From an uncultured Lachnospiraceae bacterium (GTDB lineage: Bacteria > Bacillota > Clostridia > Lachnospirales > Lachnospiraceae): 64,000 nucleotides of DNA. A program made the position numbers and the translations under genes. The notes under the pieces are model-generated. The model was not told the DNA's origin. It saw only the letters and a list, made by a program, of their open reading frames with translations, and ran no database searches. Positions 3,078 to 19,404 of the stretch are shown piece after piece (position 1 is the stretch's first letter; every line of letters starts with the position of its first letter). The stretch covers positions 57,346 to 121,345 of the forward strand of contig CANOFW010000008.1 of the NCBI GenBank assembly GCA_947565425.1. The letters are read 5' to 3'.

Positions 3078-3917
3078 GTGTTATATAATGTTGTGCAGTC
3101 GGTGAAAACGGTACTCAAACAGGGGATGAAAGCGTGGTATGGCATGGTGGGTTTTTTTCGGAGCCATGGCATTGTATTTCGCGCAAATAGCAGGCGGCTT
3201 TTATCCTACCGGGATAAGTACAAAGGGCAAAGGTGCTTCCTTATCGGCAATGGGCCAAGCCTCAGAATGGAGGATTTGGAGAAGCTTGATGGGGAGGTTT
3301 CTTTTGCCTGCAATATTATTTATAAGGTATTCGATAAAGTCCGCTGGCGGCCAACGTATCATTTTATCTCGGATGTTGTGGCCATTCATGCGATAAACGA
3401 GGAAGGAATGCTCGACAAGATTTTAGAACGTCCCCTATTTTCCAATAAAGATGTATATGCAAAGCTCAAGCGCCTGCAAGATGTAGGAGAAGGGGTTATC
3501 TATTTAAACCGCATCAATCAGCAGAAGTACAGAGTCAGCAGAAATCCTCTGGCGTATTATGTGCCGGCACAGGCAACGGTGATGACATTGATGATTGAGA
3601 TGGCGGTTTTTATGGGATTTGCGGAAATCTATCTGCTGGGCGTGGACTGTACCAATACGTTTACAGAAGGCCATTTTGAGAAATCTTATACTGATAAGTC
3701 GGTGGATGATTATAATTTGGAATGGGTGCGCAAGAAGACAAACCGTCCGAATCTGACGTTGTTTGAGCTTGGCGAGGAACGTAGGCTGCGCTCGCTGGAT
3801 GCCTATCGCAAACTGAAGGAATATGCAGACAGCAAACAGGTAAAAATATATAATGCCACGCGTGGAGGCGCCCTGGAAGTGTTTGAGCGGGTGGATTTCG
3901 ACGAGGTTATGAAATGA
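3078..3917 (+). CDS. DUF115/MptE-like, GT42-like protein
   Basis: 279-residue protein starting at GTG 3078 with GGAGG at 3066-3070. It carries CFLIGNGPSLR near residues 51-61, a later FACN, then a helix ending in EIYLLGVD and a closing NATRGG segment. This set (GNGPSL, CN, EIYL.G.D) belongs to the DUF115/MptE-like fold, which from memory also resembles GT42 sialyltransferases such as CstII. A motif HFxxSYxDK follows EIYLLGVD and is shared with the C-terminal domain of the protein at 6662. Because a nonulosonic acid pathway lies nearby, a CMP-nonulosonate transferase role is possible. That is inference; the fold call is firmer. Confidence 0.65.
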   Translation: MLYNVVQSVKTVLKQGMKAWYGMVGFFRSHGIVFRANSRRLLSYRDKYKGQRCFLIGNGPSLRMEDLEKLDGEVSFACNIIYKVFDKVRWRPTYHFISDVVAIHAINEEGMLDKILERPLFSNKDVYAKLKRLQDVGEGVIYLNRINQQKYRVSRNPLAYYVPAQATVMTLMIEMAVFMGFAEIYLLGVDCTNTFTEGHFEKSYTDKSVDDYNLEWVRKKTNRPNLTLFELGEERRLRSLDAYRKLKEYADSKQVKIYNATRGGALEVFERVDFDEVMK

Positions 3918-4009: not shown

Positions 4010-5140
4010 ATGCAAAAAGAAAATTATAAAACCCAGGTGATTGTCAGTGGAGAAGGAGCTTTGCAGGAGGCGGCTTTGATTGTTCGGAAATTGGGCGTAC
4101 AGAATATATTAGCAGTCTGCTCAAAATCGGCAAAGAAGCATTGCGGCGAGGAATTTTGGCGGGAATTTCCGGGAAAGGTTATCTTTTTCCATGCGTTTTC
4201 TCCCAATCCCAAATATGAAGAAGTTGAGGCGGGGGTGGCGTTGTTTGAGAAAGAACAATGCGAAATGGTTCTTTCCATGGGTGGCGGCAGCGCCATGGAT
4301 GTGGCGAAATGCATCAAAATGTTTGCGCCTATGGACAAACATGAGAATTATTTGAAGCAGGAAAAGAAAGTCAATGATATTCGTCATATTGCGATACCGT
4401 CCACTGCCGGAACCGGCAGTGAATCTACGAGTTTTGCCGTGGTTTATTACCAGGAGGAGAAGCAGTCCGTGGCGCATTCATCGCTGCTTCCAGATTATGC
4501 TATTTTGCATGCAGGATTTTTGGAAAATTTACCGCTCTATCAGAAAAAGGCGACGATGATGGACGCTTTGTGTCAGGCGGTGGAATCTTACTGGTCGGTA
4601 AATTCCACGAAAGAGAGCAGGCAATATGCGCGCGAGGCGATTGTGGCGTTGCGTAAGGCGTGGCAGGGGTATGTTGAGGAAAATACAAATTGGCTACAGA
4701 TTATGGCGGCGGCGAATTTCGCAGGCCGGGCTATCAATATTTCTAAGACGACGGCTGCACATGCGATGAGTTATAAGATTACTTCGATGTATGGGTTTGC
4801 CCACGGGCATGCGGCGGCAATCTGCCTGCCAAAGACTTGGGCTTATCTGCAAGAGCATATAGATGACTGTACAGATGAAAGAGGGAAAGATTACCTCTTG
4901 CAGATATTAGAGGAATTGAATCAGATGCTAGGCACGGAAAATACACAGGAGTCTATATCCTGGTTTACCAAGCTGATTGATGACTTAGAGCTTCCTTATC
5001 CAGTTCAGTGTGGGGAAGAGGACGTGGAAATCTTATCCGCCTCGGTCAATGCAGAGCGGTTAAATAACTTTCCGGTAAAAGTAACTAAGGAAGCGTTGTG
5101 CGCGATGTACCGTGAGATTGTAGGAGAAACGCAGAGGTAG
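4010..5140 (+). CDS. Iron-type alcohol dehydrogenase, probable phosphonoacetaldehyde reductase
   Basis: 376-residue group III metal-dependent alcohol dehydrogenase. ATG 4010 is chosen because GGAGGAG lies at 4001-4007; an in-frame ATG at 3965 lacks a ribosome site. Visible features are the nucleotide-binding GGGSAMDVAK near residues 91-100, the PSTAGTGSE loop, and metal-ligand histidines around H251 and H265/H267 (AHAMSYK, FAHGHA). Enzymes of this family (PhpC type) reduce phosphonoacetaldehyde to 2-hydroxyethylphosphonate. The combination with Ppd and PEP mutase, and the absence of an aminoethylphosphonate transaminase in the window, supports that substrate. The 5-base gap to the next gene indicates co-translation. 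Confidence 0.78.
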   Translation: MQKENYKTQVIVSGEGALQEAALIVRKLGVQNILAVCSKSAKKHCGEEFWREFPGKVIFFHAFSPNPKYEEVEAGVALFEKEQCEMVLSMGGGSAMDVAKCIKMFAPMDKHENYLKQEKKVNDIRHIAIPSTAGTGSESTSFAVVYYQEEKQSVAHSSLLPDYAILHAGFLENLPLYQKKATMMDALCQAVESYWSVNSTKESRQYAREAIVALRKAWQGYVEENTNWLQIMAAANFAGRAINISKTTAAHAMSYKITSMYGFAHGHAAAICLPKTWAYLQEHIDDCTDERGKDYLLQILEELNQMLGTENTQESISWFTKLIDDLELPYPVQCGEEDVEILSASVNAERLNNFPVKVTKEALCAMYREIVGETQR

Positions 5141-5144
5141 AGAA

Positions 5145-6356
5145 ATGTCAATAATCACCAAGCTTCGCAACCGTGTGGAGAAGAAAATTGCATATATCAT
5201 TTTTCGCACCCTGTTTCGGCAGGATGAGAAGCTTGTGTTGTTTGAATCCTATAATGGGGAGGATAACAGCTATAGTTGCAACCCTAAGGCATTGTATGAG
5301 CGGATGCAAAAGGCGCCGGAGTATGCGGCGTATCGTTTTGTCTGGTCGGTGCAGCATCCAGAGAAATTTGCCTTTTTATGCAAGAATCCCCGCACAAGTG
5401 TGGTACAAAAGGGCAGCTATGAGTATTTGAAAACTTGTGCCAGAGCTTGCTATTTGTTTACCAATACTGGACTGCCAAGTTATATCCTGCCGAACAGACG
5501 CCAGAAGTTGGTGTATCTGTGGCATGGGAAGCCCCTGAAATGTATTGGCTGCGGGATCAAAGGCGCTGGCGACGGCAAACGCTCCAAGGCAAAGATTGCT
5601 ATGGATTATCGAAGTTCCGGCAGACGGTTGGATATCCTGTTATCCCCCGCTCCGGCATTTTCAGATGTTATGAGCCAGGCTTACGCGCTCAGTGAGAAGA
5701 AACGAAAGCGCGCCTTACTATTGTGCGGTTATCCGAGAAATGATTTCCTGTTTCGTTATACGAGGGAAGATATTGCGCGCGTGAAGGTGAGGTTGTCGGT
5801 GCCCGCGGGGAAGAAGGTTATTCTCTATGCGCCGACCTGGAGGCCTTATCATTGGCTGGGGGGGAATCATTTTCAGCATACGGGCGGGCTTGATTTTGAC
5901 TTGATGCGACGGAAGCTGGGAGAAGATTGTGTGCTGCTTTGTCGTCTGCATCATATGGAAAAAGGAAGCGTTCGTTATGATGAATATCCAGGTTTCTTGT
6001 ATGATGTGACGGATTACCCCGAGGTCAACGAGTTATATATTATCAGCGATTTGATGATATCGGACTATTCCGGGACAATCTTTGATTATGCCAATCTTAA
6101 ACGCCCGATGGTATTGTATATGTATGATAGGGAACAATATGTAGAGCACGCGAATGGGCTGAACTTTCCCTTAGAATCGCTGCCAGGCAGAATTGTCGAG
6201 AACCAGGAGGAACTAGTATGCGCGGTTCGAGAAGAACTGTCTGCGTTTTCGTATGATGAGAAGTACCGTCAATTTAATGAAACGTTCAACTGCCTAGAAG
6301 GAGCGGATTCTTCTGGCAAGCTTTTGGCAGCGGTCATTGGGCAGACAAATAGCTAA
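5145..6356 (+). CDS. CDP-glycerol glycerophosphotransferase family protein (TagB/TagF-like)
   Basis: 403-residue peripheral membrane transferase. Family marks include FESYNGEDNSYSCNP at the N-terminus, WHGKPLK in the middle, YAPTWRP, and the C-terminal ISDYSGTIFDYAN that forms the CDP-alcohol site in TagF. TagB/TagF enzymes move glycerol- or ribitol-phosphate from CDP-alditols onto lipid-linked acceptors during teichoic acid assembly. It lies 5 bases after the alcohol dehydrogenase, so the CDP-activated group here could be hydroxyethylphosphonate instead of glycerol phosphate; that is inference. The protein is strongly similar to the third domain of the fusion at 6662, suggesting duplication. 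Confidence 0.88.
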   Translation: MSIITKLRNRVEKKIAYIIFRTLFRQDEKLVLFESYNGEDNSYSCNPKALYERMQKAPEYAAYRFVWSVQHPEKFAFLCKNPRTSVVQKGSYEYLKTCARACYLFTNTGLPSYILPNRRQKLVYLWHGKPLKCIGCGIKGAGDGKRSKAKIAMDYRSSGRRLDILLSPAPAFSDVMSQAYALSEKKRKRALLLCGYPRNDFLFRYTREDIARVKVRLSVPAGKKVILYAPTWRPYHWLGGNHFQHTGGLDFDLMRRKLGEDCVLLCRLHHMEKGSVRYDEYPGFLYDVTDYPEVNELYIISDLMISDYSGTIFDYANLKRPMVLYMYDREQYVEHANGLNFPLESLPGRIVENQEELVCAVREELSAFSYDEKYRQFNETFNCLEGADSSGKLLAAVIGQTNS

Positions 6357-6396
6357 AATGCTGGATTTGATGCAAGGAAATGGGAAGGACATGCAT

Positions 6397-6575
6397 TATC
6401 TATAGTGACAATTCAGCCATCGCCAAATTTATGGGCGAATCATGCTAGCATGAATGAGCACATAATGACGGCGATGAACGGAACGCCAGATTATGAGCAA
6501 AAAGAGTTGTGTAGCAACGGAAAGCACGTAAGTGCGGTTTTGCGAATGGCGTGGGTTGAATAGTTACTATCTATA
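6397..6575. mobile_element. MITE-like element, possibly IS66-related, with 8-bp target duplication
   Basis: A 163-bp non-coding segment (6405-6567) is bounded by the direct repeat TATCTATA at 6397-6404 and 6568-6575. Its ends are inverted repeats: the left begins GTGACAATTCAGCC and the right, read in complement, GTAACTATTCAACC; about 16 of the first 21 bases match. Ends close to 5'-GTAA and an 8-bp duplication are features recalled for the IS66 family, but no transposase is present. Inside is an interrupted dyad: CATCGCC 6418-6424 with GGCGATG 6470-6476, TTATG 6429-6433 with CATAA 6461-6465, and a perfect 14-bp palindrome at 6440-6453. This accounts for most of the 305-base gene gap at 6357-6661. 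Confidence 0.6.
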
Positions 6576-6591: not shown

Positions 6592-6620
6592 TTGCAAATA
6601 TATGCCTGGAATGGTATAAT
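6592..6620 (+). promoter_or_regulatory. Sigma-A-type promoter for the 1296-residue fusion gene
   Basis: TTGCAA at 6592-6597, a 17-base spacer and TATAAT at 6615-6620, with TGG just before the -10 (extended -10). The gene starts at 6662 with GGAGG at 6651-6655. The promoter begins 16 bases beyond the MITE-like element, so the insertion left it intact or supplied new upstream context. Confidence 0.7.
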
Positions 6621-6661: not shown

Positions 6662-9600
6662 GTGTACACCTTTCTATACGATTTTAATCCTTCCGCGGAA
6701 GAAGGATTATATGATATATATTTACCGAACGGCGAAGGACTTATCGAGCGGCAGCTTAGGATCTTGCAGGAAGCAAAGATAACAAAGATAAAGATAGCCG
6801 GCAGTGAAGCATTGTTCCGGTACTGTAGTAAACTGGTGGAAAGCCGTAAGGATTTGCATAGATTATCATTGGAATTTGCAGGGACAGAGATTAAGGAAGA
6901 TATGGTTGCGGACAAGGAGGCGACATATCTGTTTTTGGCGTATAATCTAATGTATGGGCGTGAAGAATTTAAGAATTTTTTGGCGTCATCTTCCAAATAT
7001 GTGATTGCCTCGTCTCCCAGGCAGAGGGACGGCCAGGAGCTCGCCGTGCGGGTGGATATGGATTGGATTGTGGAGCTCGGCTTGGACTTAGCAGGCTTGG
7101 ATACCTGCGGTGTATTTTCTATGATGAAGATTAATCCTGACCAGCCGGAGGAAGAACCTGTTTCGGCAAAGCCAGCGTGGAATTGTCAATCCAATCAGGC
7201 GTTTGTTCGTGGATTTATCAATTCTCTCGCCAAAGACATCAAGGGAATCTTGTGGTTTGACGAAAGCCAGGGCATTTGCCAGGTCAGGGATGGGCAAGTG
7301 GACGCGGAGTTTGCCGCGCGTATGGAGAAGGAAGATTACCTTAACAGGAGGGTTATTTCCGGGCAGGGACATGTTGTATATCTCAAAGATATCATACAAG
7401 AGAGTGGGGCGGAGCATGTATTGTTGGTCCGCGACAGTTTGTCGGAGAATATACCAATCGCAGAGCTCTTGCAGATGCAGAAGGTTGCATATAAAGAATA
7501 TAAGGTTTGCGATCACAAGGAATCCGGGGAGGCATGTGCGGCATTAAAACAGATGATGCAGCAGGAAAACGTGGATTTGTTGCTGGCGGCAGGCAGTAAT
7601 CAGACGTTAGGGCTTGCGCAGGAGGCAAGACAGCAGTTGTGTGAAGGAAAAAAAGGATGTGCGGATATCCGGCTGGCTGCGATACCTGCTGAATACGGCG
7701 ATTGGAGTTTCTGTGTGGCGGAATATTGGATTTTAGATAGTAATTTTGTGCGCACAGCGTTTGCTGTTGAGAAAGATAAAGCACAAATATACCTGTTGCT
7801 GTACCGTGCTTTGTGTGCGCTTATGCGTGATGACTTGACGGAGAAAGAGCAGACAATGGCAAGGCGCGTCTTTAGCGAACTGGCAAAAAGCCGTGCCAAC
7901 TTTTTGCAAGGAGAGAGTGCCGGGCTGCAAGCAGCATTGTATGAAAATCATACCTTAGGGTATTTCAGCAGATTTTATGGCAGCGGATTGGAAAAGCTGC
8001 CGGAGCTTATCGGACAAGCCATCGGTGCGCCAGCGCAAGACGTGGCGGCTGCGGCGATTCCTTTTATGATTCGTCGTCTGTTTGAGCATGTACAAGGCGC
8101 TGTAGTCGAAGGAACCCTTATGTATAAGAGGCTGTATACATTAGAGCTTCATACCCGTTTTGTAAGAGGCGGGGATTTTTCGGGCAGCCTGAAAACATGG
8201 TCGCAGGATTTGGCAAATTATAAGGTTTATTTTGGCAATAAATCTTACGCGTCTTATCGCGAACAGATTATGCGTCAAATTAGGACAGACGCGGAAATGA
8301 CCGGGCATTTTTTTGTTACCATGGATGATTTGCAAGAAGTGGTGACAAAAACCTTATCTTATAATAACCGCAAATTAAAGCCGCAGTGGAAGTTTGTCAA
8401 TCCGCAGACAGAGGAAGAGCGAAAGCAGATAGAAGAGTTAGCGGAGGCGGAACGTATTGAGAAATTAAAGAATATGCCGCTGAAAAATCGTATGTTATAT
8501 TCGCTCAAACGTACAAAGTTTTTCCATGAAGTGAATAACTTCCGCAAGAAGATATTTTATAAATTGTACCAGTTGATTTATCCGGTGCAGACGAAATGGG
8601 TGCTCTTTGAATCCTATGGCGGCACGAATAATTACGGATGCAATACCAGGGCAATTTATGAGTCCATGTTAGAGGATGCGGATTACTTTGATTACAAGTT
8701 TATCTGGGCGTTTAATAATCCCAAGAACTTTAATTTTCTTAAACAGAACCCGCGTACGGTACTTGTGAAACGTGGTTCCAGGCGTTATGTCAAGTTCTGT
8801 GCGCGCTCGAAATATATATTTACGAATACGGGCATGCCCAAATATATTAAGCCGAACAAAGAGCAGAAGATGGTGTACACCTGGCATGGCAAACCATTGA
8901 AGCGGATTGGCTGTTCGTTCCAGGGGGAATCAGAAGGCAAGCGCAACAAGCGTGAGCTGATGCGGGATTATACGGCATCCGGAAAGAGGCTTTCCATACT
9001 GACTTCGCCCTCTCCGGTGTTCACGCCGATTATGGCGGATGCTTATAATCTAAGCCCTAAGAAGCGTCAGACGGCAATGTTAGAGACCGGATATCCCAGA
9101 AATGATTTTCTGTTTCGCTATACGCAGGAAGATGTTTTGCGTATGAAGATGAATCTGGGAATCCCACTTGATAAGAAGGTTGTCCTCTATGCTCCGACCT
9201 GGCGTCCGTATCGCTGGCTTGGCGGTAAGAATTTTGAGCATGTGCCGGTGTTGGATTTGGACAAGCTGCATGAACAGTTGGGAGATGAGTATGTATTCTT
9301 GTGCCGGCTGCATCATTTGGAACGCGATTCCATGCGTTTTGATAACCATCCGGGGTTTGTATATGACGTCTCGATGGTACAGGATGTAAACGAGCTTTAT
9401 ATTATCAGCGATATCCTGGTGTCCGATTATTCTGGTACAGTGTTCGACTTTGCGAATTTACGTCGCCCAATTGTATTTTTTATGTACGATATGGAGGAAT
9501 ATGTGGGTGGCGCCAACGGATTGAATTTCGATTTGGATTTCCTTCCCGGACCGATCGTAGAGACGCAGGAGGATATGGCGCAGGCAGTCAAGGATGGGCT

Positions 9601-10552
9601 TGCAAATTTTGTGTATGATGAGAAATATCAGAAATTTAACGAGGCGTGCAACTGCTTGGACGGCGCGGACTGCGCTTATCGCACATCCCATCAGATCGTA
9701 GAAGTAAATCCGCCCGAGACGAAGAAACAGAAGCGGATCGTAAAATATAAGATTTTTGGCAGAAATACAAAGCTTGTTCTGCGGGGATTTTTCCAGAAGC
9801 TGCCATTTATCAAGAATGATAATACAAGGAGAATTGCCTCCTTCCATAATAAATATCAGGGGCAGCGTTGTTTCCTGATAGGCAATGGGCCAAGCCTTAG
9901 GCTGTCCGATTTGAATATGCTCAAGGATGAAATCTGTTTTGGCTGCAATATGATTTATAAGGTGTTTGAGCGCACAGACTGGCGGCCGACATTCCTTTGT
10001 GCCTCCGACCGCGTGGTGGCGCAGGCGGCGGCAGAGCAGCTTCAGGCCAATCCTGAGTGTACCTTGTGGGTGTCGCGGACAGCATATGATTTGATGAAGT
10101 ACAAGGGAGACAACTTAATCTATGTCAGCAACTTGCGCAAAGAGAAGTTCTATGTGCATGGGGATATGACAGAGTATTATGTGCCCTCGATTGCCACCGT
10201 TATGACCTTTATGATAGAACTTGCCATGTATATGGGATTTTCAGAAATATATCTTTTGGGTGTGGATTTCACAATTGGCAGAGGCAAAAACGATCATTTT
10301 ATGAACAGTTACCGCGACAAGGAGATGACGACGTTAGAGCACATAAAGATGCGCAATATGTTCAAAGGCGAGGATATTGGCGTACATGACGCGCAGATAC
10401 GTTTTGAGGGGCGCGCGCTTTACGCATATGAACAGTTAGAAAAGTATGCGAAAAAGCATGGCTACCATGTATATAATGCTACCAGGGGCGGCATGCTTGA
10501 AGTGTTTGAGCGTGCTGATTTAGATAAAGTAGCAGGAGATAAAAATAATTAG
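6662..10552 (+). CDS. Four-domain fusion: nucleotidyltransferase-like, ADH-like, TagF, DUF115
   Basis: 1296 residues, starting at GTG 6662 with GGAGG six bases upstream. Residues 1-200 resemble the nucleotidyltransferase at 2265 (ERQLRILQEAKITKI against DWQLRLLEKEGITDV) but lack its GxGxR loop. Residues about 225-620 resemble the iron alcohol dehydrogenase at 4010; AAGSNQTLGLAQ replaces GGGSAMDVAK and the metal-binding histidines have no evident counterparts. Residues about 620-1010 are an intact TagF-like domain with WHGKPLK, YAPTWRP and VSDYSGTVFDFAN. Residues about 1050-1296 are an intact DUF115 domain with FLIGNGPSLR and EIYLLGVD. The first two domains therefore look like non-catalytic relics or binding modules; the last two look active. 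The role is probably glycan phospho-alcohol transfer. Confidence 0.75.
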   Translation: MYTFLYDFNPSAEEGLYDIYLPNGEGLIERQLRILQEAKITKIKIAGSEALFRYCSKLVESRKDLHRLSLEFAGTEIKEDMVADKEATYLFLAYNLMYGREEFKNFLASSSKYVIASSPRQRDGQELAVRVDMDWIVELGLDLAGLDTCGVFSMMKINPDQPEEEPVSAKPAWNCQSNQAFVRGFINSLAKDIKGILWFDESQGICQVRDGQVDAEFAARMEKEDYLNRRVISGQGHVVYLKDIIQESGAEHVLLVRDSLSENIPIAELLQMQKVAYKEYKVCDHKESGEACAALKQMMQQENVDLLLAAGSNQTLGLAQEARQQLCEGKKGCADIRLAAIPAEYGDWSFCVAEYWILDSNFVRTAFAVEKDKAQIYLLLYRALCALMRDDLTEKEQTMARRVFSELAKSRANFLQGESAGLQAALYENHTLGYFSRFYGSGLEKLPELIGQAIGAPAQDVAAAAIPFMIRRLFEHVQGAVVEGTLMYKRLYTLELHTRFVRGGDFSGSLKTWSQDLANYKVYFGNKSYASYREQIMRQIRTDAEMTGHFFVTMDDLQEVVTKTLSYNNRKLKPQWKFVNPQTEEERKQIEELAEAERIEKLKNMPLKNRMLYSLKRTKFFHEVNNFRKKIFYKLYQLIYPVQTKWVLFESYGGTNNYGCNTRAIYESMLEDADYFDYKFIWAFNNPKNFNFLKQNPRTVLVKRGSRRYVKFCARSKYIFTNTGMPKYIKPNKEQKMVYTWHGKPLKRIGCSFQGESEGKRNKRELMRDYTASGKRLSILTSPSPVFTPIMADAYNLSPKKRQTAMLETGYPRNDFLFRYTQEDVLRMKMNLGIPLDKKVVLYAPTWRPYRWLGGKNFEHVPVLDLDKLHEQLGDEYVFLCRLHHLERDSMRFDNHPGFVYDVSMVQDVNELYIISDILVSDYSGTVFDFANLRRPIVFFMYDMEEYVGGANGLNFDLDFLPGPIVETQEDMAQAVKDGLANFVYDEKYQKFNEACNCLDGADCAYRTSHQIVEVNPPETKKQKRIVKYKIFGRNTKLVLRGFFQKLPFIKNDNTRRIASFHNKYQGQRCFLIGNGPSLRLSDLNMLKDEICFGCNMIYKVFERTDWRPTFLCASDRVVAQAAAEQLQANPECTLWVSRTAYDLMKYKGDNLIYVSNLRKEKFYVHGDMTEYYVPSIATVMTFMIELAMYMGFSEIYLLGVDFTIGRGKNDHFMNSYRDKEMTTLEHIKMRNMFKGEDIGVHDAQIRFEGRALYAYEQLEKYAKKHGYHVYNATRGGMLEVFERADLDKVAGDKNN

Positions 10553-10581: not shown

Positions 10582-11454
10582 ATGAAAAATAATCAACCAT
10601 ATGTAATCGCAGAAGCAGGATGCAACCACAAAGGTGAGATGGAGATAGCAAAGGAATTGATCAATGTAGCAGCAATGTTCTGTCATGCAGACGCCATCAA
10701 ATTTCAGAAACGCTGCCCCAAAGAACTCTTGACCGAGGAGCAGTACAATGCGCCGCACCCCAATCCCGCCAATTCATACGGCGCAACATACGGTGCGCAC
10801 AGAGAATTTTTGGAGTTCACGGTAGACCAGCATGCACAGCTCAAAGAGTGGTGCGAGGAGGCAGGCATTACGTATTCCACATCCGTATGGGATATGACGT
10901 CCGCACAGGAGATTGCAGGCTTAAAGCCGGAATTTATCAAGATTCCTTCCGCCTGCAACAACCATTTTGATATGCTGCAATGGCTTTGCGATAATTATAA
11001 GGGGGAAATTCAACTGTCCTTCGGCATGACAACCCATGAGGAGGAAGAGGAGATTATACAGCTATTTGAGAAAAATGGCAGAAATAAAGATCTCGTGATT
11101 TTCAACTGTACCTCCGGTTATCCGGTACCTTTTGAAGATGTCTGCCTTTTGGAGATTAAGCGTATGCAGCAAAGTTATGCGCAGCGCGTGAAAAAGATAG
11201 GCTTTTCCGGTCATCATCTGGGGATTGCTGTGGACGTGGCGGCTTATACTTTGGGCGCAGAGGTAATTGAGCGCCATTATACGCTGGACCGTACCTGGAA
11301 GGGCACAGACCATGCGGCGTCTTTAGAGCCGGACGGTATTCGTAAACTTGTGCGTAATTTAAAGGCGGTGCAGAAAGCGTTGACTTACAAAGAGCAGGAA
11401 ATTTTGCCGATCGAGCAGGTACAGAGAGATAAATTAAAATACCGCAAGAAATAA
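10582..11454 (+). CDS. NeuB-family nonulosonate synthase lacking the SAF domain
   Basis: 290-residue TIM-barrel synthase starting YVIAEAGCNHKGEME, with the family's KFQKR and IKIPSACNN segments and a late SGHHLG and ERHYTLD. NeuB-type enzymes condense PEP with a mannose or N-acetylmannosamine derivative to give a nine-carbon sugar acid. Typical NeuB proteins are about 340-350 residues with a C-terminal SAF/antifreeze-like domain; this one stops after the barrel. Shortened relatives include 9-phosphate synthases, which fits the phosphatase domain fused to the next gene. AAAAGGAG precedes the ATG. Neu5Ac, KDN and other nonulosonates cannot be told apart from sequence alone. Confidence 0.8.
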   Translation: MKNNQPYVIAEAGCNHKGEMEIAKELINVAAMFCHADAIKFQKRCPKELLTEEQYNAPHPNPANSYGATYGAHREFLEFTVDQHAQLKEWCEEAGITYSTSVWDMTSAQEIAGLKPEFIKIPSACNNHFDMLQWLCDNYKGEIQLSFGMTTHEEEEEIIQLFEKNGRNKDLVIFNCTSGYPVPFEDVCLLEIKRMQQSYAQRVKKIGFSGHHLGIAVDVAAYTLGAEVIERHYTLDRTWKGTDHAASLEPDGIRKLVRNLKAVQKALTYKEQEILPIEQVQRDKLKYRKK

Positions 11455-11493: not shown

Positions 11494-12681
11494 ATGAATG
11501 TAGCGTTTATACCGGTAAGGGGCGGAAGTAAATCTATTCCGCTCAAGAATATCAAGCCCATCTGCGGTAAGCCTTTGGTGTATTGGGTGGTAAAGGCGGC
11601 ATGTCTGTGCAGCCATATTGATAAGGTTTACATTGCAACGGACAGCGATAAGATTAAGGAGACTGTAGAGCAAATGGGTTTTGAGAAAGCCCAGGTGATC
11701 GGCAGGAGCGCAGAGTCTGCTTCAGACACGGCCTCAACGGAATTTGCCATGCTTGAGTTTGCAGAGAAGTATCTGTTTGATAATATTGTGTTGATTCAGG
11801 CGACTTCTCCGCTGCTTACCAGCGATGATTTGCAGCGCGGATTTGAGATTTTTGGTCAGGAGGGGGCAGATAGCGTTCTCTCTGTCGTACCGCAGAAGCG
11901 ATTTTATTGGGAATACGATGAGGCTGGCAATGCCGTGCCAATCAATTATGACGTGTATGCAAGGCCGAGGAGACAAGAGTTTGACGGATGCCTGACGGAA
12001 AACGGGGCGTTCTATATTACAACCAGGGAAGGGCTTTTAGCGAGCAAGAACCGGGTGTCCGGTAATATTAAGGCGGTAGAAATGTGTGAAGATTCTTTCT
12101 TTGAAATTGACGAGCCAAGCGATTGGGTGATTATCGAAGGACTGATGAAGAAAAACGGCGTCGCCTCGGAAAATGACAGGGAAGAGATTTTAAAGAACAT
12201 TAAAATGGTGCTCACCGATTGCGACGGCTGTTTGACAGACGCGGGCATGTATTATTCCGAGCATGGGGACGAGCTGAAGAAATTTAATACGAGGGACGGC
12301 ATGGGCTTTAAGCTCCTTCGGCAGAGCGGGATTCTTACGGGAATTATTACCAGTGAGAATGTAGAACTTGTATCACGCCGCGCTGATAAATTGCAGCTTG
12401 ATATTTTAAAGATGGGCGTTGGCGACAAGCTTGAGATTGTAAAGGAGCTGTGTGTTAAATATCAGATAGGGCTAGAGCAGGTAGCGTATGTAGGCGATGA
12501 CATCAACGATCTTGACGTGATTGCGCATGTCGGTTTTGGTTGCAGCGTGGCAAGCGGCATGGAGTGCGTGAAGGAAAAAGCTTCTTATATCACTGAGGCG
12601 AAGGGTGGTGAAGGAGCAATTCGTGAGGTCGCTGAGTTGATCCTTCATGCACAGGGCAAAATTAAACTGCGCACTAGATAA
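11494..12681 (+). CDS. CMP-nonulosonate cytidylyltransferase fused to KdsC-like HAD phosphatase
   Basis: 395 residues in two domains. Residues 1-225 are a NeuA-type cytidylyltransferase: AFIPVRGGSKSIPLKNI is the CTP-binding start and LIQATSPLLTSDD a conserved core. Residues about 235-395 are a KdsC/8-phosphatase HAD domain with catalytic aspartates in LTDCDGCLTD and the closing VGDDINDLD. In this arrangement one protein could dephosphorylate a nonulosonate 9-phosphate and activate the product with CTP. It follows the NeuB-like gene by 39 bases. With mannose-6-phosphate isomerase encoded at 18457, CMP-KDN is the most economical product; CMP-Neu5Ac would need NeuC or NanE, not seen here. Confidence 0.85.
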   Translation: MNVAFIPVRGGSKSIPLKNIKPICGKPLVYWVVKAACLCSHIDKVYIATDSDKIKETVEQMGFEKAQVIGRSAESASDTASTEFAMLEFAEKYLFDNIVLIQATSPLLTSDDLQRGFEIFGQEGADSVLSVVPQKRFYWEYDEAGNAVPINYDVYARPRRQEFDGCLTENGAFYITTREGLLASKNRVSGNIKAVEMCEDSFFEIDEPSDWVIIEGLMKKNGVASENDREEILKNIKMVLTDCDGCLTDAGMYYSEHGDELKKFNTRDGMGFKLLRQSGILTGIITSENVELVSRRADKLQLDILKMGVGDKLEIVKELCVKYQIGLEQVAYVGDDINDLDVIAHVGFGCSVASGMECVKEKASYITEAKGGEGAIREVAELILHAQGKIKLRTR

Positions 12682-12770: not shown

Positions 12771-14462
12771 ATGAATAAGGTTTTATGCGGATTGTTTTCG
12801 CTGATATTCTTATTCACATCACTACAGATAACTGTGCTGCCGGCAGAGGCGGCGGCCAAAGAGATGACCATATATGACCTTTATCTGGGAGAAAAGACTG
12901 GAGCTGAAAGCGCAGAGCAGGGGGAGGATTCCGGCAGGGGCGGGGATAGCGTAATGCTTGCGTCCCAGGGGGAATACCTTTTGATGGATATGGGGTATTT
13001 TGAGCAGCAGCAGAGGTATGTGATCCCATTTATCAAGAAGCATAAAATCAAAGAGTTGAGCCTTTACTTCAGCCATATGCATATTGACCATTATGCGGGT
13101 AAGGTGACGAAGATTACGGCAGGTATTGACGCGGTGGCGGCGATTCCTGGTATTAAAATTAAAAACCTTTATCTTCCGGACGCATCAATTGGCGGGACAG
13201 ATCCGACTTATGTAAAGAAATATGACAGATTTGTCAAGGCATTTCAGAGTTATGAGAATATCACTGGTAAAATTATCCGTCTGAAAAAGGGTAGTACCTT
13301 TACGGTCGGCTCGGCGAATGCAGAAGTAATTGGGCCGGTAAATGCTAGCCAGAACATGTCGCAGAATAATTTATCGCTGGTGACAATGATTACTTGCGGC
13401 AGGACGCGCTATCTCACGGCGGGAGACTGCATGGGCACGCAGGAAGAGCTGCTGATGAAGGAGTATAAGGGAACGACCAAACTGCGCGCCGACATTATGA
13501 AGTTGTCCCACCATGGAACGCCTAAGGCAAACTCCAGGGAATTTGTCAGCGAGGTCAAGCCGCAGTATGCGTTTGCCCAGAACAGCGGCTATACCGGCAT
13601 GCTTACGGATAATGCCAATAAGTGGCGAATTATGCACCACGCATGGGATGTAGTAAATCCATATGGGCTTCTCTATTTGACGGCAAATGAGAAGAAAGAT
13701 CTAATTATTCGGGTCAGCAACGATGTTATCAGCTTGTACAAAGGAACCATTGCCTCCGTAAACAGGCTTTCGGGCTGGGTAAGTTTGCAGGGCGGCACCG
13801 GGCTTAGTAACGATGCCATTGTCAAGTACTATATTCAGAATGGCAAGCTTGTCAAAGGAATAAAAACGATTGGCGGCAAAAAGTATTATTTTAATAGCTG
13901 TATGTTGCGGGGGAGGTATTCTGCAAAATCCCAGAAATGGAATCCGGTAGTAAAATTTGGCAGTAGTTACCGCCAGTTTAATCCTTATACGGGGATTATG
14001 GCGACCGGGTTTCAGACGTACAACGGCCGCAAATACTATTATGACGCCAATGGCTTGAGGCTTATGGGCAAAGGAACGTGTACCGTCAGAAAGATAAAGG
14101 GCAAGTATTATGGCTTCAGCAGATCAGGGGTAATCGCACGAAAATGCTGGCGTAAGTTTTCTAAGAAGTACCGTTACTTTGACGATAGCGGGAAAATGTT
14201 GATAGGATGGCAAAGGATTGGCAATAATAAATATTATTTCAATAAAAAAGGTTATCGTACGGATAACCAGATTAAAAAGATAGGCAGATACAAATATTAT
14301 TTTACGAATAGTGGTAAAATGGTTGTTGGTAAGATGTATAATATTGGCAGACATCGCTATTATTTTGATAAGAAGGGTCATATGGCGGTAAAGAAGCGCG
14401 TCAAATATCAAGGCGTGAAGTATTATTTTGACAAGAATGGAAGAATGGTGTCAGGGAAATGA
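12771..14462 (+). CDS. Secreted metallo-beta-lactamase-fold hydrolase with cell-wall-binding repeats
   Basis: 563 residues with an N-terminal signal peptide (hydrophobic FSLIFLFTSLQITVL, then AEAAAKE). The catalytic domain has the dinuclear metal set: H102, H104, D106, H107 in SHMHIDHY, a later AGD, and H247/H248 in LSHHGT. From about residue 350 it carries roughly eight aromatic cell-wall-binding repeats of the KYYF(D/N)..G type. Metallo-beta-lactamase domain plus such repeats is the architecture of pneumococcal Pce/CbpE, a phosphorylcholine esterase acting on teichoic acids. In this cluster it may remodel the phospho-alcohol groups added by LicD/TagF. The substrate is inference. The gene overlaps the next by 4 bases (ATGA). 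Confidence 0.82.
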   Translation: MNKVLCGLFSLIFLFTSLQITVLPAEAAAKEMTIYDLYLGEKTGAESAEQGEDSGRGGDSVMLASQGEYLLMDMGYFEQQQRYVIPFIKKHKIKELSLYFSHMHIDHYAGKVTKITAGIDAVAAIPGIKIKNLYLPDASIGGTDPTYVKKYDRFVKAFQSYENITGKIIRLKKGSTFTVGSANAEVIGPVNASQNMSQNNLSLVTMITCGRTRYLTAGDCMGTQEELLMKEYKGTTKLRADIMKLSHHGTPKANSREFVSEVKPQYAFAQNSGYTGMLTDNANKWRIMHHAWDVVNPYGLLYLTANEKKDLIIRVSNDVISLYKGTIASVNRLSGWVSLQGGTGLSNDAIVKYYIQNGKLVKGIKTIGGKKYYFNSCMLRGRYSAKSQKWNPVVKFGSSYRQFNPYTGIMATGFQTYNGRKYYYDANGLRLMGKGTCTVRKIKGKYYGFSRSGVIARKCWRKFSKKYRYFDDSGKMLIGWQRIGNNKYYFNKKGYRTDNQIKKIGRYKYYFTNSGKMVVGKMYNIGRHRYYFDKKGHMAVKKRVKYQGVKYYFDKNGRMVSGK

Positions 14463-17107
14463 AAAATCAGATAAAAAAAGTATTAATAAACGTCGCCCCC
14501 TATGGCGTAGTTGAAAAACATCGCGGAAAAAAGAGAGAGCTTGAGGAAGAACGGAAACGTTTGGAGAAGGAGAGGCTCGCGCTGGAGAAAAAGCAGCAAA
14601 AGGAAGAAGAAAAAAGGCAGAAGTTTCTTGCTACAAGCAATTCTCCTAGATGGGGAAGGTTCTATGCAGACTATCATGAGAAAGAAGCAATCGAGGATAA
14701 ATGGGTGCTGTATGAATCTTCCGCAGGTATTGGTATGACTTGTAATCCATACGCAATTTTTAGAGCATTTATGAAAATGCCGGAATTTACGGATTATGTG
14801 CATATTTGGGCAATTCAAGATGAAGAAGAAATGGAGCTTTTGAAAGAAGATTACCGTGCATATAAGAATGTGATTTTCATTTCTTATCACAGCAGGGCAT
14901 ATTCCTATTTTCTTGCGAAAGCAAAATATCTGATTAATAATACGTCTTTTGCCGATGCATTCTCTAAGAGAGAGGGGCAGATATTTCTGAATACCTGGCA
15001 CAGTATCACGGTAAAAACATTAGGGTATGATACGCCGGACGGAAACCGTGTCGTTGGCAATATGGTGCGCAATCTTCTGATGTCGGATTATATCATTTCA
15101 CCTAATGAATTTATGACGGAGATTTTTGAAAAATCATTTCGTCTGGCAAACATTTATGAGGGAAGATATATTTGCGAGGGTTATCCCAGGAATGATTTCG
15201 TAGTAGACACGAAGCGGGATGAGATTTTGCACAAAATGGAAGTGCGCGGCACGAAAGTGGATCCTACAAAAAAGGTAATCCTTTACGCGCCGACCTGGAC
15301 GGGAAATGCTGCTGCGCGGCCAGTAATTGATATGGGAAAATATACGGGTTTGTATGAGTATCTCATGGCAAACATTAATACGGACGAGTATCAGGTTTTA
15401 ATGAAACCGCATCCGGTAGTATATAAGAATTTAAGTGTAGAGGCGAGGGAAAGCGGACGTTATATCTCTTATGGGGTAGATACCAATGAACTCCTTTCTG
15501 TGGTTGATATTTTGATTACAGACTATTCCAGTATTTATTTTGATTATTTGCTGACGGATAAGCCGATACTTTTCTATATACCAGATTATAAATCATATGA
15601 AAATGCGAGAGGTATTTATTTTAAGCCGCAAGAGCTGCCAGGTCCTTGTTCTAAGGAACTTTCGGAACTTTTGGAGCAAATCTCCCATATTGGGGAATAC
15701 GAAAAGCAGTATCAAAAAGTGCGTAAACAGACAAGAGAGTGGGCATGCCGTTATGATGATGGAAACGTTTCGCAGAAGATGATTGATATCGTATTCCGGG
15801 GCAGCCAGGACTATAAGCTTTTGCAAGCGGCACGGACAGGAAAAAAGAAGATTCTCATGTATGCAGGCGCATTTTTGATGAACGGCATGACGAGCGCGTC
15901 GTTGAATTTGCTTCATAATATAGATTATGACACTTACGATGTAACGGTATACGCAACCGCCTTGAGGACAGGGATGCAAAACTATAATTTTGACAGGCTT
16001 CCGGGGGAAATACGCGTATTGCTCAGATGCGGTGTAATGCCTTTGACAGAAGAAAACAGACGAATTTATGAGGATACCACGCGCAATGGTTTTTATATTG
16101 CCCCAGAAGATATGCCGATGCAGGATTATCTAATGAAGCGTGAGTATATGCGATGTTTTGGCGTCAGCAGCTACGATTATATCATAGATTTTTCAGGATA
16201 TGCGCCCTATTTTATGTGTCTTACGGCAAAGCAGTGCCCTCAGGCGAAGAAAATGATTTGGCAGCACAGTGATTTAAAAGAAGAATTTATGAATGAAGAA
16301 AAGTGCAAACTAAATGAGACAGCTACCACGCTGGAGGGGTTGCTCTCCGTATACCCGTACTGTGATAAAGTGGTTTCTGCAAGTAAGACGGTGTGTGAGG
16401 TAAATAAGGAGAATCTTGCCACAGATAAGACGCGTGGAAAATTCGTATATAGTACGAATCTAATGGATGCACAGCGGACAGAGGAGATGTTACAAAGCGC
16501 CGGGAGCTGCCAGATGGATGGCCGGGATTATGTAAGAATTGTCAATGAGTTAAATGATAACGGCACTATGGATGCAACGTTGATTCCCTTCCCTTTGCAT
16601 GAAAAGGATTGTGTAAAGTTTGTCACAATGGGTCGTTGTATGCCGGAGAAGAATCACAAAAGTATTATCCTTGCACTCAAGAGGCTCATTGATGAAGGAG
16701 TTTCTTGTAGGTTGTTTATTATCGGCGACGGCCATATGAGAGAAGAGTTGGAAAGTCTGGCAGAAGATTTAGGAATTGAGGACAAAGTTACAATTACAGG
16801 CTTTATCACGAATCCCTACGCAATTTTAAAGGAATGCGACTGTTTTGTATTTCCGTCTTCTTATGAAGCGCAGGGGCTCGCGGTACTTGAAGCAAGGATT
16901 GTACAGTTGCCGATTGTCGTGAGTAATTACCCCGCGGTCAAATCTGTGATGCTTGAGGACAAGCAGTATATCATAGAGGGGACGGATGAAAATGCAGTCT
17001 ATGAGGGTATGCGGGCGTATTTGGATGGCAAAGTTTCCAACGACTATTATTTTGATGTGGCGGAATATAACCGCAAGGCATACCAGGAGTTTTTAGAGCT
17101 GCTGTAA
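14459..17107 (+). CDS. TagF-like phosphotransferase fused to GT4 glycosyltransferase
   Basis: 882 residues. Residues about 20-55 are a charged coiled coil rich in E, K and R. Residues about 70-460 form a CDP-glycerol-phosphotransferase domain with YESSAGIGMTCNP, NTWHSITVKTLG, YAPTWTG and ITDYSSIYFDYL. Residues about 470-882 form a GT-B glycosyltransferase of family 4 with GRCMPEKNHKS, FIIGDGHMREE and FVFPSSYEAQGLAVLEA. One polypeptide could thus add a sugar and a phospho-alcohol to the same growing chain. It is translationally coupled to the secreted hydrolase gene and closely followed by the PEP mutase gene. Enzyme classes are clear; donors and acceptors are unknown. Confidence 0.85.
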   Translation: MKNQIKKVLINVAPYGVVEKHRGKKRELEEERKRLEKERLALEKKQQKEEEKRQKFLATSNSPRWGRFYADYHEKEAIEDKWVLYESSAGIGMTCNPYAIFRAFMKMPEFTDYVHIWAIQDEEEMELLKEDYRAYKNVIFISYHSRAYSYFLAKAKYLINNTSFADAFSKREGQIFLNTWHSITVKTLGYDTPDGNRVVGNMVRNLLMSDYIISPNEFMTEIFEKSFRLANIYEGRYICEGYPRNDFVVDTKRDEILHKMEVRGTKVDPTKKVILYAPTWTGNAAARPVIDMGKYTGLYEYLMANINTDEYQVLMKPHPVVYKNLSVEARESGRYISYGVDTNELLSVVDILITDYSSIYFDYLLTDKPILFYIPDYKSYENARGIYFKPQELPGPCSKELSELLEQISHIGEYEKQYQKVRKQTREWACRYDDGNVSQKMIDIVFRGSQDYKLLQAARTGKKKILMYAGAFLMNGMTSASLNLLHNIDYDTYDVTVYATALRTGMQNYNFDRLPGEIRVLLRCGVMPLTEENRRIYEDTTRNGFYIAPEDMPMQDYLMKREYMRCFGVSSYDYIIDFSGYAPYFMCLTAKQCPQAKKMIWQHSDLKEEFMNEEKCKLNETATTLEGLLSVYPYCDKVVSASKTVCEVNKENLATDKTRGKFVYSTNLMDAQRTEEMLQSAGSCQMDGRDYVRIVNELNDNGTMDATLIPFPLHEKDCVKFVTMGRCMPEKNHKSIILALKRLIDEGVSCRLFIIGDGHMREELESLAEDLGIEDKVTITGFITNPYAILKECDCFVFPSSYEAQGLAVLEARIVQLPIVVSNYPAVKSVMLEDKQYIIEGTDENAVYEGMRAYLDGKVSNDYYFDVAEYNRKAYQEFLELL

Positions 17108-17152
17108 AGGCGGCAGACAATCATGGATAGAAGATATCAGAAGGAGGCAGAA

Positions 17153-18448
17153 ATGAGTACAGTATATTTGAGTATGAGTACAGATATTATTCATGGAGGA
17201 CACATGAATATCATTGAAAAAGCAGCAGAGCTGGGAGACTTAATTGTTGGAGTGCTGACAGACGATGTAGTTGCAAGCTACAAGCGTTTCCCGCTGCTTG
17301 CGTACGAAGAGAGAGTAAAGATTATAAAAGGTATAAAGGGCGTTTCCAAAGTTGTTGCGCAAGATACGCTCAGTTATAGAAAGAACTTAGAGGAATTAAA
17401 GCCGGATTATCTGGTGCATGGTGACAATTGGAAAGAAGGATTCCAAAGTTCCATTCGTGCCGAGGCAATTGAGGTTCTCGCCTCATACGGTGGAATCTTA
17501 AAGGAGTTCCCCTATTCTTCCGACGCACAGTATCAGAGGTTGGAAGATGCGTCCAGAGACCGGCTGTCTATTCCAGATGTTAGAAGGAGCAGGCTCAAAA
17601 AATTGCTGGGTATGAAGACGACGGTGAGTGCAATTGAGGCACACAGCGGATTGACGGGAATTATTGCTGAGAAGACACAGGTGTTAGAGGATGGAAAGGC
17701 GTACCAGTTTGATGCTATGTGGGTGTCTAGTCTTTGCGACTCCACGTCCAGAGGCAAGCCTGATATTGAGCTCGTAGATATGACGTCAAGACTTCGGACG
17801 ATTGAAGAGATTATGGAGGTAACGACAAAACCCATCATCTTTGACGGAGATACCGGCGGATTGATTGAACATTTTGTGTACAATATTAAGACCTTAGAGC
17901 GTATTGGCGTGTCTGCCTGCATTATCGAGGATAAGACAGGGTTAAAGAAGAATTCGCTGTTTGGCAATGAAGTCGTGCAGACACAGGATTCCATTGAGCA
18001 TTTCTGTGAGAAAATTCGTGCCGGTAAGAAAGTACTAAAGACCAGCGATTTTATGCTGATTGCGCGCATTGAGAGCTTGATTTTAGAGCAGGGAATGGAT
18101 GATGCTTTGAAGCGTGCCGAAGCGTACGTGGAGGCGGGAGCAGACGGAATTATGATTCATTCCAGACTGAAAGATCCGGCAGAAATTTTTGAATTTTGTG
18201 AGAAATTCAGGGCCAGAGATACGACAACCCCGATTGTTGTGGTGCCGACCTCCTTTAATGGCGTCACGGAAGCGGAGTGGGCCGAGAAGAATGTCAATAT
18301 TGTTATTTATGCAAACCAGCTTACCAGAAGCGCATTCCCGGCAATGCAGAATGTAGCGGAGACTATTTTGAAGAATCATAGAGCGAAGGAGGCGGATGAT
18401 ATGTGTATGTCGTTTAAAGAAATTATCACATTGATTCCGGAAGAGTAA
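17153..18448 (+). CDS. Cytidylyltransferase-phosphoenolpyruvate phosphomutase fusion
   Basis: 431 residues from ATG 17153, chosen because AAGGAGG lies at 17141-17147; an in-frame ATG at 17123 lacks such a site. Residues 1-130 are a TagD/GCT-like cytidylyltransferase with the HxGH signature in IIHGGHMNI. Residues about 155-420 are an isocitrate-lyase-superfamily PEP mutase with the diagnostic EDKx5NS motif at residues 259-268 (EDKTGLKKNS) and the metal-site FDGDTGG. PEP mutase makes the carbon-phosphorus bond of nearly all known phosphonates by turning PEP into phosphonopyruvate. The fused cytidylyltransferase suggests the end product is used as a CDP-conjugate. Together with Ppd and the reductase this completes a route to hydroxyethylphosphonate. 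Confidence 0.92.
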   Translation: MSTVYLSMSTDIIHGGHMNIIEKAAELGDLIVGVLTDDVVASYKRFPLLAYEERVKIIKGIKGVSKVVAQDTLSYRKNLEELKPDYLVHGDNWKEGFQSSIRAEAIEVLASYGGILKEFPYSSDAQYQRLEDASRDRLSIPDVRRSRLKKLLGMKTTVSAIEAHSGLTGIIAEKTQVLEDGKAYQFDAMWVSSLCDSTSRGKPDIELVDMTSRLRTIEEIMEVTTKPIIFDGDTGGLIEHFVYNIKTLERIGVSACIIEDKTGLKKNSLFGNEVVQTQDSIEHFCEKIRAGKKVLKTSDFMLIARIESLILEQGMDDALKRAEAYVEAGADGIMIHSRLKDPAEIFEFCEKFRARDTTTPIVVVPTSFNGVTEAEWAEKNVNIVIYANQLTRSAFPAMQNVAETILKNHRAKEADDMCMSFKEIITLIPEE

Positions 18449-18456
18449 AAAATAGT

Positions 18457-19404
18457 ATGAGCGTATTAAAGCTGAAACCAAGCTGCAAAGATAACCTTTG
18501 GGGTGGCAGCAGGCTGAAAGAGGAATATGGCAAAGAATGCGAAGGAGATGTACTCGCGGAAACGTGGGAGCTCTCCTGCCACCCGGATGGGTATTCTACC
18601 ATTGCAAACGGTGAGTTCGCAGGCAAGACCTTACAACAGTATATTGATGAGATGGGCAGAGAGGTGTTAGGAACACATTGTGAGAAATTCACGGATTTTC
18701 CCATCTTGGTGAAATTTATTGATGCAAAGGAGAATATCTCTATCCAGGTTCATCCTGACAACCGATATGCCCTCAAGAATGAAGGGCAGTCGGGAAAGAC
18801 GGAAGTATGGTATGTGATGGATGCGGGAGAGGATGCCTTCTTGTATTATGGGTTTAACCGAGAGATTACAGAAGGTGAATTTATCAAGCGTATCCGCGAG
18901 GACTCCTTGGTTCCAGTGTTGAATGCAGTTCGTGTCCGCAAGGGCGACGTGCTGTTTATTGAACCGGGGACCATTCATGCCATTGGTAAAGACGTCATTG
19001 TAGCAGAAATTCAGCAGAACTCCAACGTAACGTACCGTGTGTATGATTATGGCAGAATTGGCAAGGATGGAAAAAAGCGGGAGTTGCATATTGAGAAGGC
19101 AATCGCAGTCACGAATTTTCAGCCAAGTGTGAAGGACAACAGAAGTTATCCGCATGTGGCAAAGTGCGTGTATTTTACCATTGACAAGCTGAATCTGGAT
19201 GGAGCAGTTATGAAGAAAATGGAAGGGTATGTGTCTGGGGAAACGTTTGTCAATCTTTTAGTGCTGGACGGTAAGGGAACCATATCGGATAATCAGCAGA
19301 CTGTGGAATTTCAAAAAGGCGACAGTTTTTTCCTTCCGGCAGGAACTGGGGATTATACGGTAGAAGGTTGCTGTGACGCTTTGGTGATCACAATTCCAGA
19401 ATAA
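18457..19404 (+). CDS. manA: Mannose-6-phosphate isomerase, type I
   Basis: 315-residue zinc cupin enzyme interconverting fructose-6-phosphate and mannose-6-phosphate. Typical marks are ETWELSCHPDG near the N-terminus, SIQVHPD with zinc-binding histidine, KTEVWYV, and EPGTIHAIG. Length is normal for the short Firmicute form. It starts 8 bases after the PEP mutase gene. In this setting mannose-6-phosphate could be the acceptor for the NeuB-like synthase, giving KDN-9-phosphate; supply of GDP-mannose is the alternative, but no GDP-mannose pyrophosphorylase is seen here. The ribosome site is weak, so translation is probably coupled to the upstream gene. Confidence 0.9.
   Translation: MSVLKLKPSCKDNLWGGSRLKEEYGKECEGDVLAETWELSCHPDGYSTIANGEFAGKTLQQYIDEMGREVLGTHCEKFTDFPILVKFIDAKENISIQVHPDNRYALKNEGQSGKTEVWYVMDAGEDAFLYYGFNREITEGEFIKRIREDSLVPVLNAVRVRKGDVLFIEPGTIHAIGKDVIVAEIQQNSNVTYRVYDYGRIGKDGKKRELHIEKAIAVTNFQPSVKDNRSYPHVAKCVYFTIDKLNLDGAVMKKMEGYVSGETFVNLLVLDGKGTISDNQQTVEFQKGDSFFLPAGTGDYTVEGCCDALVITIPE

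Follow-up and report, generated by a model that had tools for sequence, protein, structure and literature searches.

A four-part fusion protein and its two transferase domains

We analysed a 64,000-nucleotide stretch of DNA from an uncultured Lachnospiraceae bacterium (assembly GCA_947565425.1, contig CANOFW010000008.1, positions 57,346-121,345; hereafter the window), which carries an open reading frame (ORF) with a GTG start at 6662-10552. All window features given below lie on the forward strand. The ORF encodes a 1296-residue protein that consists, in this order, of a nucleotidyltransferase-like part, an iron-alcohol dehydrogenase (ADH)-like part, a TagF domain and a DUF115 domain, as judged by BLASTP, Pfam and an orthologue in a second species. 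An earlier note, made from the sequence alone, had given the position and strand of the ORF correctly and had proposed that its domain order repeats the content of four separate upstream genes: a LicC/PntC-like nucleotidyltransferase with an intact loop (NT, 2265-2993), an iron-containing ADH that is probably a phosphonoacetaldehyde reductase (4010-5140, in a frame open from 3965), a single TagF-like transferase (5145-6356) and a single DUF115/MptE-like protein (3078-3917). This correspondence was confirmed by BLASTP for TagF, DUF115 and the ADH, and by profile comparisons for both N-terminal parts.

Residues 1-215 (6662-7306) form the nucleotidyltransferase-like part and residues 221-584 (7322-8413) the ADH-like part, the C-terminal half of the latter being less sure; both are without the active site of their relatives. 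A charged linker, assigned from its location between domains, covers residues 585-624 (8414-8533). It is followed by a TagF-like polyol-phosphate transferase domain with its motifs retained (residues 625-1005, 8534-9676; Pfam Glyphos_transf, 1.7e-88) and by a DUF115/MptE-like domain of the Cst-II/Maf-like kind (residues 1040-1296, 9779-10549; Pfam MptE-like, 1e-13, and profiles). An assembly artefact was ruled out: a second species (G011) bears the fusion with the same four-domain order on the reverse strand of its locus L004 (6238-10125), 77% identical over the full length and in the same gene order. Both fusion-bearing assemblies are drafts.

The C-terminal half closely resembles the single genes. 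The single TagF aligns with fusion residues 625-1005 at 55.8% identity over 382 residues (BLASTP, E 1e-160), and the single DUF115 protein with residues 1042-1290 at 42.5% over 254 residues (E 1e-58). As the earlier note had stated, these two domains keep their motifs. Aligned with a solved TagF, the fused domain retains TWHG and RxH, whose histidines we take to be the catalytic residues, and the solved Cps3D (8qoy) is a sequence match to it (E 1e-34). The DUF115 part retains GNGPSL, and an 11-row profile of it matched Maf (5mu5) and Cst-II at E 4e-4 (0.23 and 0.005 with the single sequence). The chain therefore appears, by its sequence, to hold a second transferase domain related to the Cst-II and Maf transferases.

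A promoter-like site precedes the fusion gene (TTGCAA-17-TATAAT, 6592-6620, 10 of 12 matches); it is one of five such sites in 901 bases, where 2.2 are expected from shuffles. Between the stop of the single TagF and this site, 68 codons are open in frame (6357-6560); they gave no Pfam match and are perhaps a gene remnant.

The N-terminal parts and their altered active-site motifs

The similarity of the first 600 residues to the upstream enzymes is far fainter. The earlier note had called the local alignments clear by eye, which holds for TagF, DUF115 and, at E 4e-4, the ADH, but not for NT: its pairwise score against the fusion (38) did not rise above 500 shuffles (mean 32, sd 5, max 55), and of 15 further pairs only that of the window fusion with the NT from genome G023 gave a notable value (E 7e-4). 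We therefore compared profiles, built from the fusion and its orthologue on one side and from families gathered from relatives on the other. Some rows in the NT and ADH sets are cut copies of one gene, and locus L009 was excluded; MAFFT misplaced the rows when NT and ADH were aligned jointly. In the second species, NT is split into two pieces on contigs C102 and C3, the second lying at the end of C3.

With HHalign, the profile of residues 1-225 matched the 28 NT rows with a score of 46.7 (probability 90.5%), far above 60 column shuffles (mean 13.8, sd 2.5, max 20.7). Among 41 comparisons, which included 33 other window proteins, the NT family and its members came top and the best other protein reached 21.2. 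The nearest NT by hidden Markov model (HMM) was that of G023, not the window's own. A model of this part, folded with NT homologues, had the phosphonate cytidylyltransferase PntC as its best structural match, so residues 1-215 probably adopt a nucleotidyltransferase fold.

The profile of residues 215-611 matched the 32 ADH rows with a score of 65.9 (probability 95.5%; 60 column shuffles: mean 16.2, sd 2.9, max 25.3), and the ADH family and its members again headed 41 comparisons with the same 33 proteins included (best other 23.3). Direct comparison agreed: the single ADH aligned with residues 206-423 at 20% identity over 249 residues, its local score of 90 exceeded 500 residue shuffles (mean 37, max 57), and Pfam Fe-ADH matched residues 229-324 at 9.6e-5, under the Pfam cut-off. 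The resemblance lies in the N-terminal, Rossmann-like domain of these enzymes, and a low-confidence model of the part retrieved iron-ADHs. Among 32 rows, an HMM of the part scored the ADH of the second species at 19.5 bits (a cut copy at 20.5), the window ADH at 16.1 and a generic ADH at 15.7; because the top scores belong to the ADHs of the two fusion-bearing species, a local origin of the ADH-like part is mildly favoured. Chance similarity of the N-terminus was ruled out, as column shuffles and the 33 other window proteins reach at most 25.3. Unrelated folds in the N-terminal 600 residues, which would have spoken against the earlier note, were not seen: both models led back to nucleotidyltransferases and iron-ADHs.

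Both parts appear to have lost their active-site motifs. In PntC, the consensus GXG(T/S)RX4-8PK forms the pyrophosphate site, and in the related FrbH and YgbP activity was abolished when the Lys of this consensus was replaced (PMC6697681). This consensus is absent from fusion residues 1-215 in both species; the whole pyrophosphate-loop stretch is gone, and the HGD of NT reads AYN. The GGGSAMD of the ADH reads AGSNQTL in the window fusion and AGGNETL in the second species, leaving no GGGS loop, and TAGTGSE reads EYGDWSF in the window fusion. The window ADH has D185, Q189, H251 and H265 at four positions that we take to be its metal ligands (Asp, His/Gln, His, His); these are Y, R, E and A in the fusions of both species, in a region where the alignment is weak. 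The losses of the GxGxR loop, of GGGSAMD and of the metal histidines that the earlier note had described are thus real and common to both species.

Distribution, selection and duplication history

Few of the genomes searched carry the fusion. Searched with the whole protein, 2 of 29 genomes of the genus carried it, while a third species (G003) matched from residue 619 on. The N-terminal part alone was found in 2 of 61 relatives (the window's genome and the second species). Among 397 family genomes it was found in the window's genome, with a weak match in G379, whose frame has three stops; among 392 genomes of the order, in the window's genome and in G581, in a frame that encodes an ordinary iron-ADH. 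These genome sets overlap. Viral contigs gave no match to the fusion, and a genome-contig scan with two short peptide patterns, in which one of 199 stretches was a relative, tests wider absence weakly. Literature searches on DUF115 and nonulosonic acids, on phosphonates and teichoic acid polymerases and on GMPPA/GMPPB pseudoenzymes returned no matching work within the library searched; we do not claim that the fusion is unpublished.

Between the two species, the N-terminal parts are 60-71% identical (64% over the first 613 residues) against 90-91% for the rest of the fusion. The ratio of nonsynonymous to synonymous substitution rates (dN/dS) was 0.116 for residues 1-220, 0.175 for 221-395 and 0.184 for 396-584, and 0.038 for both TagF and DUF115; for the single genes of the same species pair it was 0.091 (ADH), 0.067 (TagF) and 0.070 (DUF115). 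These values are rough, with dS near saturation at about 1.5. The N-terminus is under constraint, but more weakly so than the catalytic half or the single genes.

We built trees from 12 TagF and 13 DUF115 rows chosen by hand; loci L107, which has no TagF match, and L110, whose TagF match is short, entered the DUF115 tree only. In the TagF tree, the fused and the single form from the two species come out as sisters (100/99) and the domain of the third species falls outside (99/99), which indicates that TagF was duplicated within this lineage. Among the DUF115 rows, the single proteins join first the single protein of the third species (96/92) and then its fused domain (90/92); the window's fused domain branches off elsewhere, at a position that the tree leaves unresolved. 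The duplicated pathway suggested by the earlier note is thus upheld for TagF and fits the duplication of a gene block, but a simple copy of all four single genes was ruled out, since the tree places the fused DUF115 away from the single one, of which it is a homologue but no recent copy. The data fit the duplication of an NT-ADH-TagF block that became joined to an older DUF115, and a faster rate in the N-terminus could account for 15-20% identity.

The third species offers a different arrangement. At L070 8051-12622 (forward strand), it encodes a 1523-residue protein composed of an ADH, an orphan part (residues 379-835), TagF and DUF115. The fused ADH has kept its GGGS loop as well as the residues at the four ligand positions and so looks intact. 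The gene lies after LicD, the decarboxylase, an MBOAT gene with a partner gene, NT and a single DUF115; its 18-kb stretch holds neither a separate ADH nor a single TagF. The orphan part of about 457 residues had no Pfam match and no match in 397 family genomes, a search run without a positive control; it resembles nothing tried, and kinship with the window N-terminus was ruled out. Other genomes of the family encode TagF-DUF115 proteins of 705-706 residues that lack any extension (L105, L106). The MBOAT homologue of the third species is spread over two successive ORFs (301 and 179 residues, L070 3511-4987, forward strand) and is whole in the window at 20962-22470.

Kdo-type genes (KdsA, 431 bits) come after the 1523-residue protein, in the place where the window has NeuB- and NeuA-KdsC-like genes, and the fused DUF115 domains differ too; a sugar-specific DUF115 would explain this. 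Among nine other DUF115 stretches (the third species and eight picked from 49 matching genomes), eight have NeuA/KdsB-like or KdsC-like genes, the exception being L106. In genome G160, a 415-residue protein (L110 6757-8004, forward strand) has a short TagF match (115 residues) before DUF115 and adjoins NeuA/KdsC-like genes.

Pathway genes and the possible role of the fusion

The nearby genes appear to encode a phosphonate pathway and probably the synthesis of a cytidine monophosphate (CMP)-nonulosonate. Together in one cluster are a cytidylyltransferase-phosphoenolpyruvate (PEP) mutase fusion (PepM, 17123-18448; TIGR02320 407 bits, cut-off 319.6; PF01467), a phosphonopyruvate decarboxylase (1130-2254; TIGR03297 476 bits, cut-off 312.5), NT, the ADH and a LicD-family phosphotransferase (228-1064; Pfam). 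The best solved relative of the ADH is 6jko, whose title names a sulfoacetaldehyde reductase, practically tied with 1vhd; sulfoacetaldehyde would be the sulfo-analogue of the substrate proposed here, and the ADH scores under the cut-off of the PsrA model. Its second metal ligand is Gln, as in the second and third species; the other five rows shown, G046 and G023 among them, have His. Reduction of phosphonoacetaldehyde of the phpC type is a known branch (PMC9381506), and in Fom1 a domain fused to PEP mutase activates 2-hydroxyethylphosphonate with CMP (PMC6697681).

Directly downstream of the fusion are a NeuB-like nonulosonate synthase (10582-11454; TIGR03569 202 bits, under the cut-off of 399.65) and a CMP-nonulosonate synthetase-like part fused to a KdsC-like phosphatase (11494-12681). 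A mannose-6-phosphate isomerase (18457-19404; TIGR00218 166 bits, cut-off 116), which may supply a precursor of ketodeoxynononic acid (KDN), and a KDN-9-phosphatase-like domain (168 bits, cut-off 180) beside it give hints of KDN. A second polymerase-like protein of the cluster, an 882-residue TagF-GT4 fusion (14459-17107; Pfam), has a counterpart in the third species.

The usual cytidine diphosphate (CDP)-glycerol donor is unlikely in the window's genome, because no TagD scored over the cut-off there or in the second and third species, unlike in G327, where TagD lies between a TagF-DUF115 fusion and a single DUF115. TagD was present in two of the seven genomes searched (G327 and G149).

Taking these observations together, we tentatively propose that the protein is a surface-polymer synthase with two activities, at somewhat less than an even chance for the proposal in full. 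The phosphonate that TagF would transfer is probably 2-hydroxyethylphosphonate, activated as its CMP ester; DUF115 would transfer a CMP-nonulosonate, perhaps KDN, as predicted from the adjoining NeuB/NeuA-like genes; our best guess for the product is a polymer of phosphonate and nonulosonate units. The first 600 or so residues would be catalytically dead paralogues of the PntC-like cytidylyltransferase and the phosphonoacetaldehyde reductase of this very pathway, derived from a duplicated gene block. Nucleotidyltransferases and iron-ADHs are usually oligomeric, and a retained fold could therefore pair with its live paralogue. The dead parts may be kept because they pair with, or sit next to, the live enzymes, NT from the fourth and the ADH from the second gene upstream, and such docking would hold substrate supply on the polymerase. 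The scaffold or hand-over role raised by the earlier note is plausible, because the third species has an intact-looking ADH in the same protein. More doubtful is the wider idea that silenced copies of pathway enzymes serve as sockets for the live ones, a non-covalent counterpart of the ADH-polymerase fusion of the sister species, with a teichoic-acid-like product that has phosphonate and nonulosonate in its backbone.

Known systems share parts of this layout. The TagF-like capsule polymerases Cps1B, Cps7D and Cps3D and Bcs3 of Haemophilus influenzae type b are multi-domain proteins that combine a polyol-phosphate transferase, another transferase and a non-catalytic part (PMC5974469; PMC10299916). 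The window fusion likewise has TagF, a second predicted transferase and an apparently non-catalytic part in one chain, but its second transferase is DUF115/Cst-II-like, and in place of TPR or SH3b domains it bears dead relatives of supply enzymes. Its product may be a phosphate-bridged polymer. Among PEP mutases, 59.5% are fused to other domains, nearly all of them nucleotidyltransferases (PMC6697681); the first part of the window fusion shares the predicted PntC fold with these cytidylyltransferases, but it is fused to a polymerase and has lost the consensus loop. Maf_flag10 (pfam01973), the central domain of Maf, resembles Cst-II (PMC11339370), and the window DUF115 profile matches both of these nonulosonate transferases; unlike them, the domain is fused to TagF, and no flagellin context was seen among the listed genes.

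Several points weigh against the proposed synthase with docked supply enzymes. Docking itself is an inference. The fusion form was found in only two species, so that selection was judged on one pair, and TagF and the fusion N-terminus need not share one duplication event. Residues 380-611 alone carry no ADH signal (17.7 against 40 shuffles with mean 15.0, sd 2.7, max 22.8), and the C-terminal half of the ADH-like part therefore rests on length, the multiple alignment and a weak model; residues 1-613 modelled from two sequences had a poor pLDDT of 34.5. As to the donor, near-full-length IspD-like genes number one each in the second and third species and two in the window's genome, whose second copy (contig C20) leaves a CDP-polyol donor possible there; this assembly is 92.9% complete, and a missing gene may sit in a gap.

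We nevertheless prefer docking to four alternatives, because worn relatives of the two supply enzymes make up the non-catalytic part and because this polymerase once gained an intact-looking ADH in the third species. The strongest alternative, which we consider unlikely, is that the N-terminal half is a mere oligomerisation or stability module that forms polymerase homodimers, where other TagF-like polymerases have TPR domains. The TPR part of Cps1B mediates oligomerisation and is dispensable for activity, and cutting that of Cps7D abolished expression (PMC5974469). The part resembling nothing tried between ADH and TagF in the third species and the extension-free proteins of 705-706 residues also speak for such a module, which leaves unexplained why the modules are relatives of two neighbouring supply enzymes and why the third species has an intact-looking ADH.

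It is improbable that the dead domains are allosteric sensors that still bind CMP-phosphonate, cytidine triphosphate (CTP) or NAD(H) and adjust the transferases to what is supplied. Silent regulators with a nucleotidyltransferase fold are known, and GMPPA/GMPPB structures were among the model matches of the first part. GMPPA, a catalysis-free protein of this fold, is paired with its live relative GMPPB and regulates it; the pairing proposed for the window is hypothetical by comparison, with a dead partner that is part of a polymerase. Against sensing, neither the GxGxR...PK loop, which binds phosphate, nor the GGGS loop for the nucleotide has stayed unchanged.

Only a slim chance remains that the active sites were rebuilt for a new catalytic activity. 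Stretches such as TEIKEDM, AEYGDWSFC and WSQDLAN are identical in the N-terminal parts of both species and unlike the old motifs, but no new metal or nucleotide site was recognised, with no dedicated search made, and only two histidines (476 and 497) are shared within residues 215-600. A decaying, functionless passenger, as the faster evolution of the N-terminus (60-71% identity) might suggest, is very improbable given a dN/dS of 0.12-0.18 and a reading frame unbroken in both species.

Pseudo-enzymes that act as organisers are known mostly from eukaryotic signalling. Nature here provides a paired comparison: the polymerase of one species bears an intact-looking ADH, whereas in two others it bears dead parts related to NT and ADH, whose live forms are separate. 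This makes the step from fusion to docking directly testable. The findings point to a surface polymer bearing phosphonate and nonulosonate in a genus of Lachnospiraceae, with DUF115 as the part that may vary with the sugar.

Further genes of possible relevance were seen. The window's genome encodes a second NT, joined in a 604-residue protein to an aminotransferase (class I/II by Pfam; L074 6514-8328, contig C3), in the layout of the solved PntC-AEPT, whose aminotransferase is of class V; it is perhaps another branch of CMP activation. Inside the phosphonate/LicD cluster, a protein encoded at 12771-14462 ends in choline-binding-type repeats (Pfam), and its N-terminus, judged by eye, has a motif that suggests a metallo-beta-lactamase. 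At 22775-24817, the window encodes a 680-residue AMP-binding enzyme fused to a nitroreductase domain.

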